This document shows positions 10,678 to 16,749 of a stretch of DNA of 64,000 bases, piece after piece. The DNA is taken from positions 434,001-498,000 of the forward strand of contig NZ_JADKSO010000002.1 of NCBI RefSeq assembly GCF_015351245.1. The letters are read 5' to 3'. The first letter of the stretch is position 1; each line of letters begins with the position of its first letter. Both the position numbers and the translations under genes were made by a program. The stretch comes from Rathayibacter sp. VKM Ac-2879. GTDB lineage: Bacteria; Actinomycetota; Actinomycetes; Actinomycetales; Microbacteriaceae. Under the pieces are notes generated by a model. That model worked only from the letters and a program-made list of their open reading frames with translations, had not been told where the DNA came from and ran no database searches.

Positions 10678-10925
10678 ACGGGCAGAGGGACGGACATACT
10701 GTCCCGATCCGCATCGCCGCCGTATCGACGTCACTGCACGGCGTGGCCGCACTACTCAGACGTGCAATAATTGTCAATAGGGCCCGTTCGGGTCGCGGAG
10801 CACCCTCCCCAGGATCGGGCGTGTGAGCTTCTCGACTTGACATGGGTCCTCGTAATGCCCACCGACGGACATCGCCCCTGCGGCGAGGTCCGCCCCCGGG
10901 ACGCAACGGATGGAGAGGTGCCGCT

Positions 10926-12248
10926 ATGGCCACCAGAGCTACCAAGACCGCAACGCTCGACGCCGTCGAGGACGACGTGACGACGACCGCCAAGAAGCCC
11001 GCAGCGCGCAAGCCCGCGGCGAAGACCACCTCCGCGAAGGCGCCGGCAACGAAGCCGGCCCGGTCGCGCGCGACCACCAAGGCCGCGGCTCCGGCCGAGG
11101 GAGCCGCTGAGGAACCGAGCGACGTCGTCGAGCCCGACGAGGCCGATGTCGTCGACGAGGAGGAGACCGAGGCGGTCGTCGTCGAGGACACGGAGTCCGA
11201 CACGAAGGACGACTCCGAGGCCGCCGACGCCCCGACCTCGGCCACGGCCCCTGCTGAGCCCCTCCCCAGCGGAGCACTCGTGCTCTCGTTCGGCGGCGAG
11301 GACGACGAGGTCCCCGTCTACTCGACCGCGATCACCGGTGCGACCGCCGACCCGGTCAAGGACTACCTCAAGCAGATCGGCAAGGTCGCGCTGCTCAACG
11401 CCGCCGAGGAGGTCGAGCTCGCGATGCGCATCGAGGCCGGCCTGTTCGCCGAGGACAAGCTCGCCAGCTCCTCCGACTTGAGCCCGGAGCTCGTGCGCGA
11501 GCTGCGGTGGGTCGCGAAGGACGGACAGCGGGCCAAGAGCCACCTGCTCGGAGCGAACCTCCGGCTCGTGGTGAGCCTTGCCAAGCGCTACACGGGCCGA
11601 GGGATGCAGTTCCTCGACCTCATCCAGGAGGGCAATCTCGGCCTCATCCGTGCGGTCGAGAAGTTCGACTACACCAAGGGCTTCAAGTTCTCGACCTACG
11701 CGACCTGGTGGATCCGTCAGGCGATCACGCGCGCGATGGCCGACCAGGCACGCACCATCCGCATCCCGGTGCACATGGTCGAGGTCATCAACAAGCTCGC
11801 CCGCGTGCAACGGCAAATGCTCCAGGATCTCGGCCGCGAGCCGACGCCCGAGGAGCTTTCGCGCGAGCTCGACATGACTCCCGAGAAGGTCATCGAGGTG
11901 CAGAAGTACGGCCGCGAGCCGATCTCGCTGCACACTCCCCTCGGTGAGGACGGCGACAGCGAGTTCGGCGACCTCATCGAGGACACCGAGGCGGTCGTGC
12001 CGGCCGACGCCGTGGGCTTCACGATGCTGCAGAAGCAGCTGGAGTCGCTGCTCGACTCTCTCTCCGAGCGCGAGGCGGGCGTGATCCGCATGCGCTTCGG
12101 TCTCGGTGACGGCATGCCCAAGACGCTCGACCAGATCGGCGACACGTTCGGAGTGACCCGCGAGCGGATTCGTCAGATCGAGTCGAAGACGATGGCGAAG
12201 CTCCGCCATCCGTCGCGATCGCAGTCGCTCCGCGACTACCTCGAGTAG
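10926..12248 (+). CDS. sigA: Primary RNA polymerase sigma factor (sigma-70 group 1)
   Basis: The 440-aa housekeeping sigma factor (SigA/HrdB/RpoD). About 150 residues at the N-terminus are low complexity, first Lys/Ala rich then acidic. Region 1.2 follows ([16 protein letters not shown]), then region 2 ([49 protein letters not shown]), region 3 ([13 protein letters not shown]) and region 4, with the helix-turn-helix [19 protein letters not shown]. The ATG at 10926 is chosen for its GGAGAGG site; the longer frame lacks homology. TTGACA at 10837-10842 is a possible -35 but no clear -10 follows. murT starts 4 nt after the stop, so the three genes 10926-14228 look like one operon. Confidence 0.97.
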
Positions 12249-12252
12249 GCCG

Positions 12253-13518
12253 ATGATCCGCTACGCGCCGGCGGTCCTCCTCGGGAGGGCCGCTCGGTTC
12301 GCAGCGCGCGTCCGCAAGCCCGGCGGAGGCTCTGCCGTGCCCGGGCTCGTGGTGAACCGCCTCGCGCCCGGTTTCCTTCCTGCCGTCCTCGGCGGATTCG
12401 CCGACGGACTCGTCGTCGTGAGCGGATCGGCCGGCAAGTCGACGACCACCAAGATGCTCGTCGCCGTGCTGCGAGCGCACGGCCTCCGAGTGTTCACGAA
12501 TCCCTCCACCGCGAACATCGCGCAAGGCCTCACCTCGGCCCTCCTCGAACGGGCAGACCTCCGCGGTCGAATCGACGCCGATATCGCGGTGCTCGAGATG
12601 GACGAGGGCCACGGCGCCCACCTCGCCCCTCGCATGGCTCCGCGAGTCGTGCTGCTGACGAACGTCGTCGTCGACCAGATCGACCGCTTCTTCGATCCGG
12701 CGATGGTGGCGCGGATGCTCGCCACGATCGCGTTGCGTGCCACCGGTCGGGTCGTCCTCAACGCCGACGACCGGCACATCGCCGAGATCGCGACCACGCT
12801 ACCGAGCGATCTCGTCCGCTGGTACGGCGTCTCGGAGGAGGTGCGCTCCGGCGCGCCCGGGGGCCTCGGCTACGCGGCAGACGCCGATGGCGGCGCCGAG
12901 CGCGCGACGACGGTCGTCGAGAGCACGCGAGGCGCCGCCGCCCTTCTCCGCAGCGACGGCGAGTCGCTCGACGTCCGCCTTCCCGCTCGTGGCGTGCACT
13001 ATGCCGTGGACGCGGCCGCAGCGATATCGGCCGCGCGCGCGCTGCTCGAGGGGCGATTCGACCCCGCCATCGCCGCGTCCGCGCTCTCCTCGATCGAACC
13101 CGTCTTCGGGCGGGGCGAGGTCGTCACCGTGCGCGGACAGGACGTCGAGTTCGTGCTCGTGCAGAACCCCGCGAGCTACCGCCTCAACATCGCCGAGATC
13201 CCGGCGGGCACGGAGCAGATCATGGTGGCCATCGGGTCCGATGTCCGCGACCCCTCCTACTTCTGGCCGGTCGACACCTCGGGGCTCGGCCGCGTTCGCG
13301 TGGTGTCCGGGTCCAAGGCCCACGAGGCGGCTCTCCACCTGCGCTACGACGGCGTCACGGTGGACGCGGTCGACGACGACCTCGCGCGAGCACTCGACGG
13401 ATTCCTCGCTCTGCCCACGCCGACGGCGGGACGCAAAACCATCGTCTTCTCGGCCGATGCGATGCGCCGTACCCGCGCGCACCTCCAGCTCGCCACGAAC
13501 CGTGAGGAGTCATCGTGA
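12253..13518 (+). CDS. murT: MurT-like Mur ligase lacking the zinc ribbon
   Basis: A 421-aa Mur-ligase-fold protein of the MurT family (Mur ligase middle domain plus DUF1727 C-terminal domain). In other Gram-positives MurT activates the alpha-carboxyl of D-Glu in lipid II with ATP and amidates it using ammonia from GatD. The P-loop is SGSAGKSTTTKM (Lys62), NPSTANIAQGL follows, and the middle domain reads LTNVVVDQIDRF. Departures: no cysteine anywhere, so the four-Cys zinc ribbon usually inserted near residues 195-235 is missing. The C-terminal segment reads SYFWPVD (Pro339) where I recall the family having W-I-W-D. Overlaps gatD by GTGA. Probably active as a ligase, but its nucleophile may not be ammonia. 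Confidence 0.88.
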   Translation: MIRYAPAVLLGRAARFAARVRKPGGGSAVPGLVVNRLAPGFLPAVLGGFADGLVVVSGSAGKSTTTKMLVAVLRAHGLRVFTNPSTANIAQGLTSALLERADLRGRIDADIAVLEMDEGHGAHLAPRMAPRVVLLTNVVVDQIDRFFDPAMVARMLATIALRATGRVVLNADDRHIAEIATTLPSDLVRWYGVSEEVRSGAPGGLGYAADADGGAERATTVVESTRGAAALLRSDGESLDVRLPARGVHYAVDAAAAISAARALLEGRFDPAIAASALSSIEPVFGRGEVVTVRGQDVEFVLVQNPASYRLNIAEIPAGTEQIMVAIGSDVRDPSYFWPVDTSGLGRVRVVSGSKAHEAALHLRYDGVTVDAVDDDLARALDGFLALPTPTAGRKTIVFSADAMRRTRAHLQLATNREESS

Positions 13519-14228
13519 CCGCGCTGCGCATCGCTGTGCTCGCCCCCGACCTCCTCGACAGCAACGGAGACGCGGCCAATGCTCGCGTGCTGGCGGCGCG
13601 CGCCCGGTGGGCGGGCCTCGAGGCCGAGGTCGTGGCGCTGGAGAACGTGCAGGACACTCGGGTCCGACCGGACGTGCTGGTCGCCGGCACCGGCGCCGAC
13701 GACGATCTGCCCGCGGCGCTGGAGCTCCTCCGCTCGGTGCGCTCCACCCTCCACTCCTGGGTCGAGCAGGGAACCCAGGTCCTCGCGATCGGTGCCGGCT
13801 GGGAGCTCTTGGCCGGGACGATCGCCACGCGGGCCGGCGTGATCGAGGGGATCGGCCTCTTCCCCGGACGCTCGGTCGCGGGGGAACGCGCGACGGACGA
13901 CCTGCTCGTCCAGACTCCGGAGGGCGTGCTCGTGGGGTTCGAGAACCACGACCGGCGCATGGAGGGGATTACCGCGGAGCAGTCTCTCGGCCGGGTCCTG
14001 CACGGTACCGGCGACGGAACGGGGCACGAGGGGTACCGCGTCGGCGGCCTGCTCGGTACTCATCTGCACGGGCCGGTACTCGCGAAGAACCCCGTTCTGG
14101 CCGACGGGATCCTGAGGCGAGCGCTCGGCGACGCCTATGAGGCGAACGATGCGCGCCTGCTCCTCGCGGACGATACGGCACGAGCCGCCCGCGAAGTGAT
14201 CGCGAAGCGGCTCGGTGTCGGTCTGTAG
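13515..14228 (+). CDS. gatD: GatD-like glutamine amidotransferase fold without catalytic cysteine
   Basis: A 237-aa class I (CobB/CobQ-type) amidotransferase-fold protein, the usual partner of MurT. Canonical GatD hydrolyses glutamine with a Cys in a motif like ICGGYQLLG. Here the aligned stretch is AIGAGWELLAG (residues 91-101), so the nucleophile position is Gly93 and the protein has no Cys at all. The general-base region GTHLHGPVLAKNP (His185) and GFENHD are kept. Glutaminase activity is therefore not expected. The GTG start overlaps the murT stop (GTGA), so translation is coupled and a complex is likely. See the findings for a possible role in group-B peptidoglycan. Confidence 0.85.
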   Translation: MTALRIAVLAPDLLDSNGDAANARVLAARARWAGLEAEVVALENVQDTRVRPDVLVAGTGADDDLPAALELLRSVRSTLHSWVEQGTQVLAIGAGWELLAGTIATRAGVIEGIGLFPGRSVAGERATDDLLVQTPEGVLVGFENHDRRMEGITAEQSLGRVLHGTGDGTGHEGYRVGGLLGTHLHGPVLAKNPVLADGILRRALGDAYEANDARLLLADDTARAAREVIAKRLGVGL

Positions 14229-14667: not shown

Positions 14668-16749
14668 ATGGCTTCCTCCGACTACAGCGCTCGGCATCTC
14701 TCCGTCCTCGAGGGCCTCGAGGCGGTCAGGAAGCGCCCGGGCATGTACATCGGGTCGACCGACTCCCGCGGTCTCATGCACTGCCTGTGGGAGATCATCG
14801 ACAACTCCGTCGACGAGGCCCTCGCGGGACACGGAACCGAGATCAGCGTCGTGCTGCACGCCGACGGCAGCGTCGAGGTCCGTGATCGGGCCCGCGGCAT
14901 CCCGGTCGACATCGAACCCAAGACCGGGTTGAGCGGCGTCGAGGTCGTCTTCACCAAGCTGCACGCGGGAGGCAAGTTCGGCTCGGGCTCCTACGCCGCC
15001 TCCGGAGGATTGCACGGCGTCGGCGCGTCGGTGGTCAATGCCCTGTCTGAACGGCTCGACGTCGAGGTCGACCGCGATGGACGCACGTACCGCATGTCGT
15101 TCCACCGGGGCGAGCCGGGACGCTTCGCGGACGCGGGCGAACCGACTCCGGATGCACCGTTCACGCCGTTCGAGAACGGCTCGGAACTCGACGTGGTCGG
15201 CAAGGTCCGCAAGAACGTCACCGGCACGCGCGTGCGGTACTGGGCCGACCGGCAGATCTTCACCAAGGGCGCCGCGTTCCAGACCGACGACCTGGTGACG
15301 CGAGCGCGCCAGACCGCTTTCCTCGTGCCGGGGCTCACGATCGACATCGTCGATGACCGTGGCGAGGAGCGCCGCGCCGAGATGTTCCGCTACGACGGGG
15401 GCATCTCGGAGTTCGTCGAGTTCCTCGCCCCCGACTCCGCCGTCACGGACGTGCTGCGGTTGACCGGTTGGGGCACCTTCACCGAGACGGTCCCCGTGCT
15501 GACGCCCGGCGGGGCGATGGTGCCGACGGAGGTGGAGCGCACCTGCGAGGTCGATATCGCGCTCCGGTGGGGCACGGGCTACGACACGGTGCTTCGCAGC
15601 TTCGTCAACATCATCTCCACGCCCAAGGGCGGCACGCATCAGACCGGCTTCGAGCAGGGTCTGCTGAAGCTGCTCCGCTCTCAGGTCGAGGCCAACGCGC
15701 GGCGGCTGAAGGTGGGGTCGGACAAGCTCGAGAAGGACGACGTGCTCGCGGGACTGACCGCGGTGCTCACCGTCCGCCTCCCGGAGCCGCAGTTCGAGGG
15801 CCAGACCAAGGAGGTCCTGGGGACGCCCGCCGTGCGCGCGATCGTCGCCTCCACCCTCGCGTCGACGCTCGGCGCGGTCTTCGCCTCGACCAAGCGTGAA
15901 GACAAGACGCAGACGTCGCAGCTGCTCGAGAAGGTCGTCGCCGAGATGAAGTCGCGCATCTCGGCGCGTGCGCACAAAGAGACGCAGCGCCGCAAGAACG
16001 CGCTGGAGTCCTCCTCGCTTCCTGCCAAGCTCGTCGACTGCCGCAGCAACGATGTCGAGAACAGCGAGCTGTTCATCGTCGAGGGTGACTCGGCGCTCGG
16101 CACGGCCAAGCTCGCGCGTCATAGCGAGTACCAGGCCCTGCTGCCCATTCGCGGCAAGATCCTCAACGTCCAGAAGGCCAGCATCGCCGACATGCTCTCG
16201 AACGCGGAGTGCGCGTCGATGATCCAGGTGATCGGGGCCGGCTCCGGCCGCTCCTTCGATCTCGCGGCGGCCCGCTACGGCAAGATCATCCTGATGAGCG
16301 ACGCCGACGTCGACGGCGCGCACATTCGGACGCTGCTGCTGACGCTGTTCTTCCGCTACATGCGTCCGCTCGTCGAGGCGGGTCGTGTCTTCGCGGCAGT
16401 CCCCCCGCTGCACCGAGTCGTCGTCATGAACCCGGGCAAGAAGCCGAACGAGACGATCTACACCTACTCCGAGAAGGAGCTGCAGGGCGTGCTCTCGGCG
16501 CTCGGGAAGGCCAACCGCTCGTACCAGGACCCGATCCAGCGTTATAAGGGCCTCGGCGAGATGGACGCCGACCAGCTCGCGACGACCACGATGGACCGCT
16601 CCCGACGGACCCTGCGGCGGGTGCGGGTATCGGACGCCGAGAACGCGGGACGGGTCTTCGAGCTGTTGATGGGCAACGACGTCGCCCCGCGCAAGGAGTT
16701 CATCGTGCGCGGCTCCGAGACGCTCTCGCGCGACCGCATCGACGTCTGA
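14668..16749 (+). CDS. parE: DNA topoisomerase IV-type subunit B (GyrB/ParE family)
   Basis: The 693-aa ATPase subunit of a type IIA topoisomerase. The GHKL ATPase domain has KRPGMYIGSTD and the catalytic Glu/Asn in IIDNSVDEALAGH. The transducer follows, then the TOPRIM domain with VEGDSALGTAK (about residue 470) and DADVDGAHIRTLL (about 545), and a C-terminal QRYKGLGEMDADQL. It faces the A subunit tail to tail 33 nt away, rather than sitting next to gyrA near the origin, so it is taken as the second topoisomerase of the genome (called ParE or ParY in actinobacteria). Its ATG follows GAGGGG. Confidence 0.88.
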   Translation: MASSDYSARHLSVLEGLEAVRKRPGMYIGSTDSRGLMHCLWEIIDNSVDEALAGHGTEISVVLHADGSVEVRDRARGIPVDIEPKTGLSGVEVVFTKLHAGGKFGSGSYAASGGLHGVGASVVNALSERLDVEVDRDGRTYRMSFHRGEPGRFADAGEPTPDAPFTPFENGSELDVVGKVRKNVTGTRVRYWADRQIFTKGAAFQTDDLVTRARQTAFLVPGLTIDIVDDRGEERRAEMFRYDGGISEFVEFLAPDSAVTDVLRLTGWGTFTETVPVLTPGGAMVPTEVERTCEVDIALRWGTGYDTVLRSFVNIISTPKGGTHQTGFEQGLLKLLRSQVEANARRLKVGSDKLEKDDVLAGLTAVLTVRLPEPQFEGQTKEVLGTPAVRAIVASTLASTLGAVFASTKREDKTQTSQLLEKVVAEMKSRISARAHKETQRRKNALESSSLPAKLVDCRSNDVENSELFIVEGDSALGTAKLARHSEYQALLPIRGKILNVQKASIADMLSNAECASMIQVIGAGSGRSFDLAAARYGKIILMSDADVDGAHIRTLLLTLFFRYMRPLVEAGRVFAAVPPLHRVVVMNPGKKPNETIYTYSEKELQGVLSALGKANRSYQDPIQRYKGLGEMDADQLATTTMDRSRRTLRRVRVSDAENAGRVFELLMGNDVAPRKEFIVRGSETLSRDRIDV

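Follow-up and report, generated by a model that had tools for sequence, protein, structure and literature searches.

The closest described relatives of the gene pair considered here are MurT and GatD, which together form the lipid II isoglutaminyl synthase and have been solved from Staphylococcus aureus (6gs2), Streptococcus pneumoniae (6fqb) and Streptococcus pyogenes (9sq9). The S. aureus enzyme works on lipid I and lipid II but not on UDP-MurNAc-pentapeptide, and its GatD C94G mutant lost glutamine use while NH3-dependent amidation at pH 8.5 was unaffected and still required GatD; at pH 7.5, NH3 was used by neither the wild-type nor the C94G pair (PMC3266927). Asp349 of S. aureus MurT is lent to the catalytic triad of GatD (PMC6113224), a tyrosine plugs the ammonia entry, an arginine flanks the gate facing GatD, and an asparagine of MurT corresponds to the residue holding the acceptor carboxylate in MurD and MurF (PMC6085368). 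A stretch of 64,000 nucleotides from Rathayibacter sp. VKM Ac-2879 (NZ_JADKSO010000002.1, positions 434,001 to 498,000; hereafter the window) carries a MurT-GatD pair between sigA and a topoisomerase gene, parE. Its ammonia half is dead, its ligase half appears intact, and it lies in a slot where relatives keep amino-acid genes, so that the pair probably attaches a cross-linking amino acid. Stated in full, the favored but by no means certain reading is that of an ATP-dependent amide ligase, derived from the lipid II amidase of Micrococcales, that joins a bridge amino acid to the alpha-carboxyl of D-Glu with GatD as a non-catalytic partner.

In group-B peptidoglycan, an old taxonomic marker, the defining trait is that the D-Glu alpha-carboxyl carries a bridge; in a Rathayibacter-like host the bridge amino acid is, from the wall type, presumably diaminobutyrate. 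The family Microbacteriaceae has been stated to be group B (PMC10978784), and its member Rhodoluna has a B2-beta wall with D-Ala-D-Dab and Gly-D-Glu (PMC4156110). Glycine on the D-Glu alpha-carboxyl also occurs outside group B, in Intrasporangium (PMC3035309).

The window murT and gatD open reading frames (ORFs) overlap by 4 bases on the plus strand (Table 1). MurT has the Mur ligase middle domain (PF08245, 2.8e-12, 47.5 bits against a cut-off of 24), with K62 as the P-loop lysine; its C-terminal domain, PF08353, scores 24.0 bits against a curated cut-off of 25, and the predicted fold agrees with MurT. GatD has the GATase_3 domain (PF07685, 2.3e-14). Scores against the NCBIfam isoglutaminyl synthase equivalogs fall far below cut-off (79.8 against 800 and 66.5 against 400). 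By sequence, the closest solved chains are MurT and GatD of S. aureus, S. pneumoniae and S. pyogenes, and the AlphaFold2 models (predicted local distance difference test 86.5 for MurT and 95 for GatD) match the MurT of the same three species and, best for GatD, S. aureus GatD (5n9m). Among the matches listed, the closest GatD proteins are those of Rathayibacter tanaceti (74%) and R. iranicus (71%), with DXS at 94-95%, which puts the host within Rathayibacter, a plant-associated genus, or close to it.

The window pair shares with the described synthases the two-gene operon, the folds, and the ATP and acceptor residues, and has a tryptophan, Trp338, at the contact-Trp position of canonical MurT; unlike them it is without the nucleophile, Tyr plug, gate Arg and triad Asp. 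Much of this was anticipated in an earlier note made from the DNA sequence, which had claimed that neither protein contains cysteine (both ORFs lie at the positions it gave and each has none), and that the GatD nucleophile motif is lost: a phmmer alignment with S. aureus GatD sets LAIGAGWELLAG opposite LTICGGYQFLG, placing Gly93 of the window at C94. Its reading of Trp-Pro at MurT 338-339 was also borne out, residues 337-341 being FWPVD where the three solved MurT have W/Y-D, as was the retention of the P-loop with its lysine (GSAGKST from residue 58), of His185 of GatD within GTHLHGP, and of the coupling of the two genes. Additionally, the Mg-binding acids and the acceptor Asn of the lipid II enzyme are preserved in MurT.

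A residue survey covered 306 distinct GatD proteins, with their MurT where readable. All 198 cysteine-bearing pairs with a GT or AT P-loop retain the His and Asp of GatD, and in all 198 MurT keeps the gate Arg (RDQ[LM]DR or RDQLHR), KNP and the triad Asp; the Tyr plug is present in 197, the remaining one being unread. In the 79 pairs with a GS-type P-loop, the kind seen in the window, the cysteine is never present, its position being held by Gly (60), Ala (11), Ser (5) or Asn (3), the Tyr plug is likewise absent from all 79, with Asn there in 63, and the gate Arg occurs in one. The carboxylate-binding Asn88 is preserved in 79 of 79 GS-type and 198 of 198 cysteine-bearing pairs. As judged from these residues, the source and path of ammonia have been lost together and the ligase has been kept.

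Eighteen pairs with a GT P-loop are also without the cysteine: 14 of type IV, two of type V, L169, and L163, which groups with the Cys-less clade. In types IV and V the GatD is without His as well as Cys, as part of a separate MurT lineage that has the zinc ribbon, and type IV reads RDSIKR as against DQ[IL][DN]R. The MurT P-loop was unreadable or of another kind in 11 rows (nine with the cysteine, two without). Divergent Cys-less pairs with DQ[LV]HRW in MurT, and KSP replacing KNP, were seen at L295, L311 and L327, and genome G134 carries one such pair in addition to a pair of type I.

Kinship was examined in a FastTree phylogeny of MurT (113 rows, in which long branches call for caution mainly for types IV and V, II' and the small-genome rows). 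The Cys-less clade comprises 38 rows (support 100) and is nested with the cysteine-bearing, zinc-less pairs of the family in a clade of 62 rows (support 100). As this cysteine-bearing, zinc-less type (type III) is also the usual one in the order sample, where it makes up all 30 of the best loci, the Cys-less pair most likely derives, by this phylogeny, from the normal lipid II amidase of the order Micrococcales. Type III, nearest kin of the window pair in the MurT tree, shares with it the missing zinc ribbon, but has all glutaminase residues and, in the loci read, lies outside the sigA-parE slot. Loss of the ribbon, also pointed out in the earlier note, is real but not diagnostic, and was rejected as a marker, because the ordinary cysteine-bearing Micrococcales pairs are without CxxC pairs too; so are the two Mycobacteriales pairs. 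The ribbon occurs in only a subset of bacteria (PMC6113224).

Both genes are under selection. The ratio of nonsynonymous to synonymous substitution rates (dN/dS, Nei-Gojobori) between the window and R. iranicus is 0.08 for MurT and 0.22 for GatD, and ranges over 0.08-0.13 for MurT (three comparisons) and 0.13-0.28 for GatD (four), which upholds the earlier statement that the genes are not decaying. These ratios, with the preserved ATP and acceptor residues, make it very improbable that the pair is decaying or is a structural or regulatory remnant with no enzyme role, despite the reduction of GatD to about 200 residues in small-genome lineages and the 36 family genomes that have neither gene.

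Location in the chromosome provides the strongest evidence for the function of the pair. The order sigA-murT-gatD-small gene-parE of the window recurs in 14 named loci (L009-L022), and sigA adjoins murT in 37 of 40 further Cys-less family loci. In L054 parE is inverted, L008 starts within murT, L023 shows neither MurT nor neighbors, and L027 and L072 have two extra alanine-racemase-like stretches, the small gene of L072 adjoining sigA. Small-genome Cys-less loci have sigA in eight of nine and parE in nine of nine; in these family members (L159-L165, L167, L170) GatD is shortened, in some to about 200 residues, and MurT is near full length. Type IV pairs, although of separate lineage, occupy the same slot (with sigA beside 13 of the 14 and the small gene beside 12). 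Beside cysteine-bearing pairs, sigA was found in none of 23 family, five zinc-ribbon and 30 order loci, read with short flanks. Type III loci have short flanks, and the sigA-parE slots of those genomes were read separately: in 16 of 16 genomes having only the Cys-type pair, that pair is absent from the slot.

Genomes without the pair show what else the slot can hold. The 7 kb behind sigA was surveyed in 60 genomes, 34 of them without MurT-GatD (one ending at a contig edge), with gene types set by tblastn from Pfam-checked representatives. A ligase gene occupies the slot in 28 of the 33 readable pair-less genomes; CofE-like genes (PF01996) are present in 27 and ATP-grasp genes (PF14397) in 25, along with alanine-racemase-like stretches (18), diaminobutyrate-2-oxoglutarate transaminase (three) and MurJ (two). 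Two slot transaminases, at 601 and 603 bits, exceed the 552 bits that NCBIfam sets for the equivalog. Five slots have none of these genes, two being almost empty and three holding an apparent amino-acid ABC transporter set (Pfam on one). In genomes with only the Cys-type pair, 0 of 16 slots hold these genes and 15 of the gaps are under 300 bases; for the slot ligase, 28 of 33 versus 0 of 16 gives a Fisher p of 6e-9, not corrected for kinship. None of these genes was found in the slots of three zinc-ribbon genomes or five order outgroups.

Several slot genes may be described further. The CofE-like family, of about 232 residues, accounts for 27 of the 33 readable slots L448-L480; one member scored 34.9 against the 180.65 bits of TIGR01916, and one compared with the PDB matched no chain. 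The MurJ-like lipid II flippase genes (L456:969-2609 and L473:627-2588) stand alongside ATP-grasp and racemase-like genes. An extra MurE-like ligase gene lies between sigA and parE (L495) in G162, a genome with only a cysteine-bearing pair.

Similar genes accompany some of the pairs themselves. In type II loci with readable downstream DNA, racemase-like genes or a transaminase stand beside the pair in six of seven (L027, L072, L139, L140, L141, at only 29% identity, and L156; not L054). ATP-grasp genes adjoin type IV pairs in seven of 14, and a CofE-like gene lies directly upstream of both type V pairs; of the type V slots, L501 holds CofE-like, MurT, GatD and racemase-like genes together, and L500 racemase-like genes only. 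It is an evenly balanced proposition that the sigA-parE interval is a modular locus for group-B bridge assembly, in which swapped unrelated ligases, with racemase, transaminase and MurJ genes, set the wall subtype, and of which the window pair is the commonest resident. The ligases so exchanged would be, with no greater and no lesser assurance, two glutaminase-dead MurT-GatD lineages, the CofE-like proteins and the ATP-grasp proteins. The company kept in L501, and the ATP-grasp genes beside half of the type IV pairs, would also suit an amino-acid ligase whose target is another carboxyl, or which appends a subsequent residue of the bridge, leaving the first linkage to a CofE-like, ATP-grasp or other enzyme. 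That assignment is unlikely: the pair retains the carboxylate-binding Asn of the lipid II enzyme along with its Mg-binding acids, and where the flanks of named type I loci could be read, no other gene of these kinds stands between sigA and parE.

In the proposed bridge-ligase reaction, MurT would still bind ATP and a carboxylate of the stem peptide, from which an acyl phosphate should arise, with an amino acid entering from solution as the nucleophile in place of GatD-derived ammonia. The amino acid would most likely be the group-B bridge residue, joined to the D-Glu alpha-carboxyl on lipid I or lipid II, and GatD would be retained as a non-catalytic partner holding MurT in the active conformation; which carboxyl accepts, which amino acid is added and this scaffold role are the parts of the proposal that we infer. 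Because the C94G substitution made in S. aureus is the change seen in the window, a dead GatD can still serve MurT. Activation of a carboxylate followed by addition of an amino acid is the chemistry performed by the MurC-F ligases, which have the same ligase fold (MurF 4cvm, E 4.5e-17) and are not known to need a partner protein. MurC-F differ in their UDP-linked substrates, which they bind with an N-terminal domain; in MurT this domain is truncated (PMC6085368, PMC6113224).

A number of points weigh against the bridge-ligase assignment, and the main rival among them is that free ammonia is a possible nucleophile. MurT would then make D-isoglutamine from free NH3 with GatD as a scaffold, as in S. 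aureus, where the C94G form of GatD supports NH3-dependent amidation of lipid II by MurT at pH 8.5 (PMC3266927), and no residue observed forbids NH3. Such an ammonia-only amidase is nevertheless quite unlikely: at pH 7.5 NH3 was not a substrate for the S. aureus pair, wild type or mutant (PMC3266927), an amidated carboxyl could not bear the group-B bridge, free ammonia would not require loss of the gate Arg and Tyr plug, and the slot genes of relatives belong to amino-acid chemistry and not to nitrogen supply. As regards the bridge ligase itself, some residues of the glutaminase and ammonia path are partially retained in the GS-type pairs: the triad Asp persists in 25 of 79, the GatD His is kept in 55 and gone in 24, and L301 still has the gate Arg. 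No racemase, transaminase or other ligase gene stands in the window slot, nor did a tblastn search with the slot proteins detect one anywhere in the 64-kb window. The sharing of L501 by a CofE-like gene and a dead MurT-GatD pair may mean that the alternative ligases perform different steps. Three further points concern relatives and are also to be counted here: the pair is missing from 75-89 of 249 family genomes, Cys-less and cysteine-bearing pairs coexist in seven genomes (Leifsonia aquatica and six family genomes), and dead pairs like those of types IV and V occur in ten loci of other Actinomycetota (phylum sample). Provided that all of the family is group B, the absences exclude the pair as its one universal bridge ligase and mean that in pair-less genomes some other enzyme must make the linkage.

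These distributions come from four samples. The scan of named genomes used a pattern that included the His of HGP and kept the best 80, so that His-less GatD is under-represented. Among the matches listed, chromosomal GatD of Microbacteriaceae is without the cysteine in 20 of 20 (19 named and the window), that of other groups has it in 67 of 67 (the named scan and seven plasmid records), and the named carriers of the Cys-less clade are Microbacteriaceae in 19 of 19. The sole Microbacteriaceae plasmid pair, from Leifsonia shinshuensis, is cysteine-bearing; it adjoins an M15 (vanY-like) peptidase gene (L001:2709-5673), and the MurT of the second pair of L. aquatica (L089) is near-identical to it. 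The order draw of 297 genomes gave 104 places at E 5.3e-37 or better, of which 90 were read: 86 GatD have the cysteine, and the four without all carry the GS-type MurT signature, their MurT matching Agromyces at 84%, Pseudoclavibacter at 70%, and a family-sample genome at 74 and 82%. In the phylum draw (396 genomes), 27 of the 29 best new loci have the cysteine, and the two without stem from family-sample genomes.

The family sample consisted of 249 possibly incomplete genomes of the family to which R. iranicus belongs, classed by sequence where loci were fetched and otherwise by bit score. In a first pass through the large samples no more than 7-11 candidates per genome were scored; absence of GatD was retested in 51 family genomes with more candidates (in some genomes all, in others 55 of up to 93), and absence of MurT in 37 of these with all candidates, GatD matches of E 4e-9 or weaker, mostly in long frames, being counted as other amidotransferases without individual reading. 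Outside the 75-89 genomes mentioned, the GS-type pair is present by score or reading. Only a cysteine-bearing zinc-less pair was seen in 17 genomes (16 read, G077 by score) and only a cysteine-bearing zinc-ribbon pair in five; type IV occurs in at least 14, type V in two, and a divergent dead pair in one (G020). Neither murT nor gatD was found in 36 of the 37 family genomes searched for both, and 11 more were without GatD in searches for GatD only. The family sample contradicts the description of murT-gatD as universal in Actinobacteria (PMC6085368); the order sample, in which few candidates were scored, gave only 104 strong GatD places from its 297 genomes and may point the same way. A DXS species tree (one gene, many weak forks) served only to show that the pair classes are scattered.

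The earlier note had expected cysteine loss to track group-B peptidoglycan and a second, canonical pair to speak against its idea. The first expectation agrees with the named GS-type carriers, all Microbacteriaceae, and less well with the ten Actinomycetota loci outside them (L420-L429), whose MurT has the zinc ribbon and whose GatD is without Cys and His; the wide form, that Cys-less GatD is found only in group B, was dropped, and only the GS-type clade looks confined to group-B bacteria. Canonical second pairs do occur, in the seven relatives mentioned above. The bridge-ligase idea of that note accordingly keeps its dead glutaminase with retained ligase and its Microbacteriaceae carriers, gains the slot company, loses the zinc-ribbon argument, and has the second pairs against it.

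Table 1. Coordinates in the window of the MurT-GatD pair, its diagnostic residues and the borders of the slot
Feature	Position	Strand	Remarks
sigA (primary sigma factor)	10842..12248	+	NF004561, 769 bits against cut-off 582; left border of slot; stops 4 bases 5' of murT
MurT-like ligase, 421 aa, 0 Cys, without zinc ribbon	12253..13518	+	PF08245, PF08353, fold
P-loop G58-S-A-G-K-S63 of MurT (family GTNGKT)	12424..12441	+	
Asn88 of MurT, = S. pneumoniae Asn85, kept	12514..12516	+	Acceptor-carboxylate position of MurD/MurF; role: PMC6085368
Val140 of MurT	12670..12672	+	At gate-Arg position of canonical MurT (RDQ[LM]DR)
Pro339 of MurT	13267..13269	+	At triad Asp349 position of S. aureus MurT; role: PMC6113224
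GatD-like protein, 237 aa, 0 Cys	13515..14228	+	PF07685, 2.3e-14; glutaminase fold without nucleophile
Asn17 of GatD	13563..13565	+	At Tyr-plug position of canonical ammonia path; role: PMC6085368
Gly93 of GatD	13791..13793	+	At catalytic Cys94 position
His185 of GatD (HGP), kept	14067..14069	+	
Conserved small protein, 83 aa	14242..14493	-	Right slot border; found beside slot in relatives; no NCBIfam match
Topoisomerase subunit B, called parE	14668..16749	+	NF004189 (DNA gyrase subunit B), 757.7 bits against 740; right slot border

The naming of 14668..16749 as parE rather than gyrB is our own reading.

In summary, evidence from sequence, kinship and slot makes it well supported, but unproven, that the pair adds the amino acid of the group-B bridge, GatD serving as its scaffold. 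Searches of the open-licence literature in PubMed Central, covered mostly as titles and beginnings of abstracts, brought up no paper on Cys-less GatD or on a ligase for the group-B bridge, no described family was found for such a ligase, and a search of plasmid DNA gave nothing on a bridge enzyme. The pair is a candidate for the enzyme that links the bridge residue to D-Glu, and the same locus supplies a few alternatives. If the proposal is true, a glutamine amidotransferase would have switched its nucleophile from ammonia to an amino acid, with the dead glutaminase kept as a partner.

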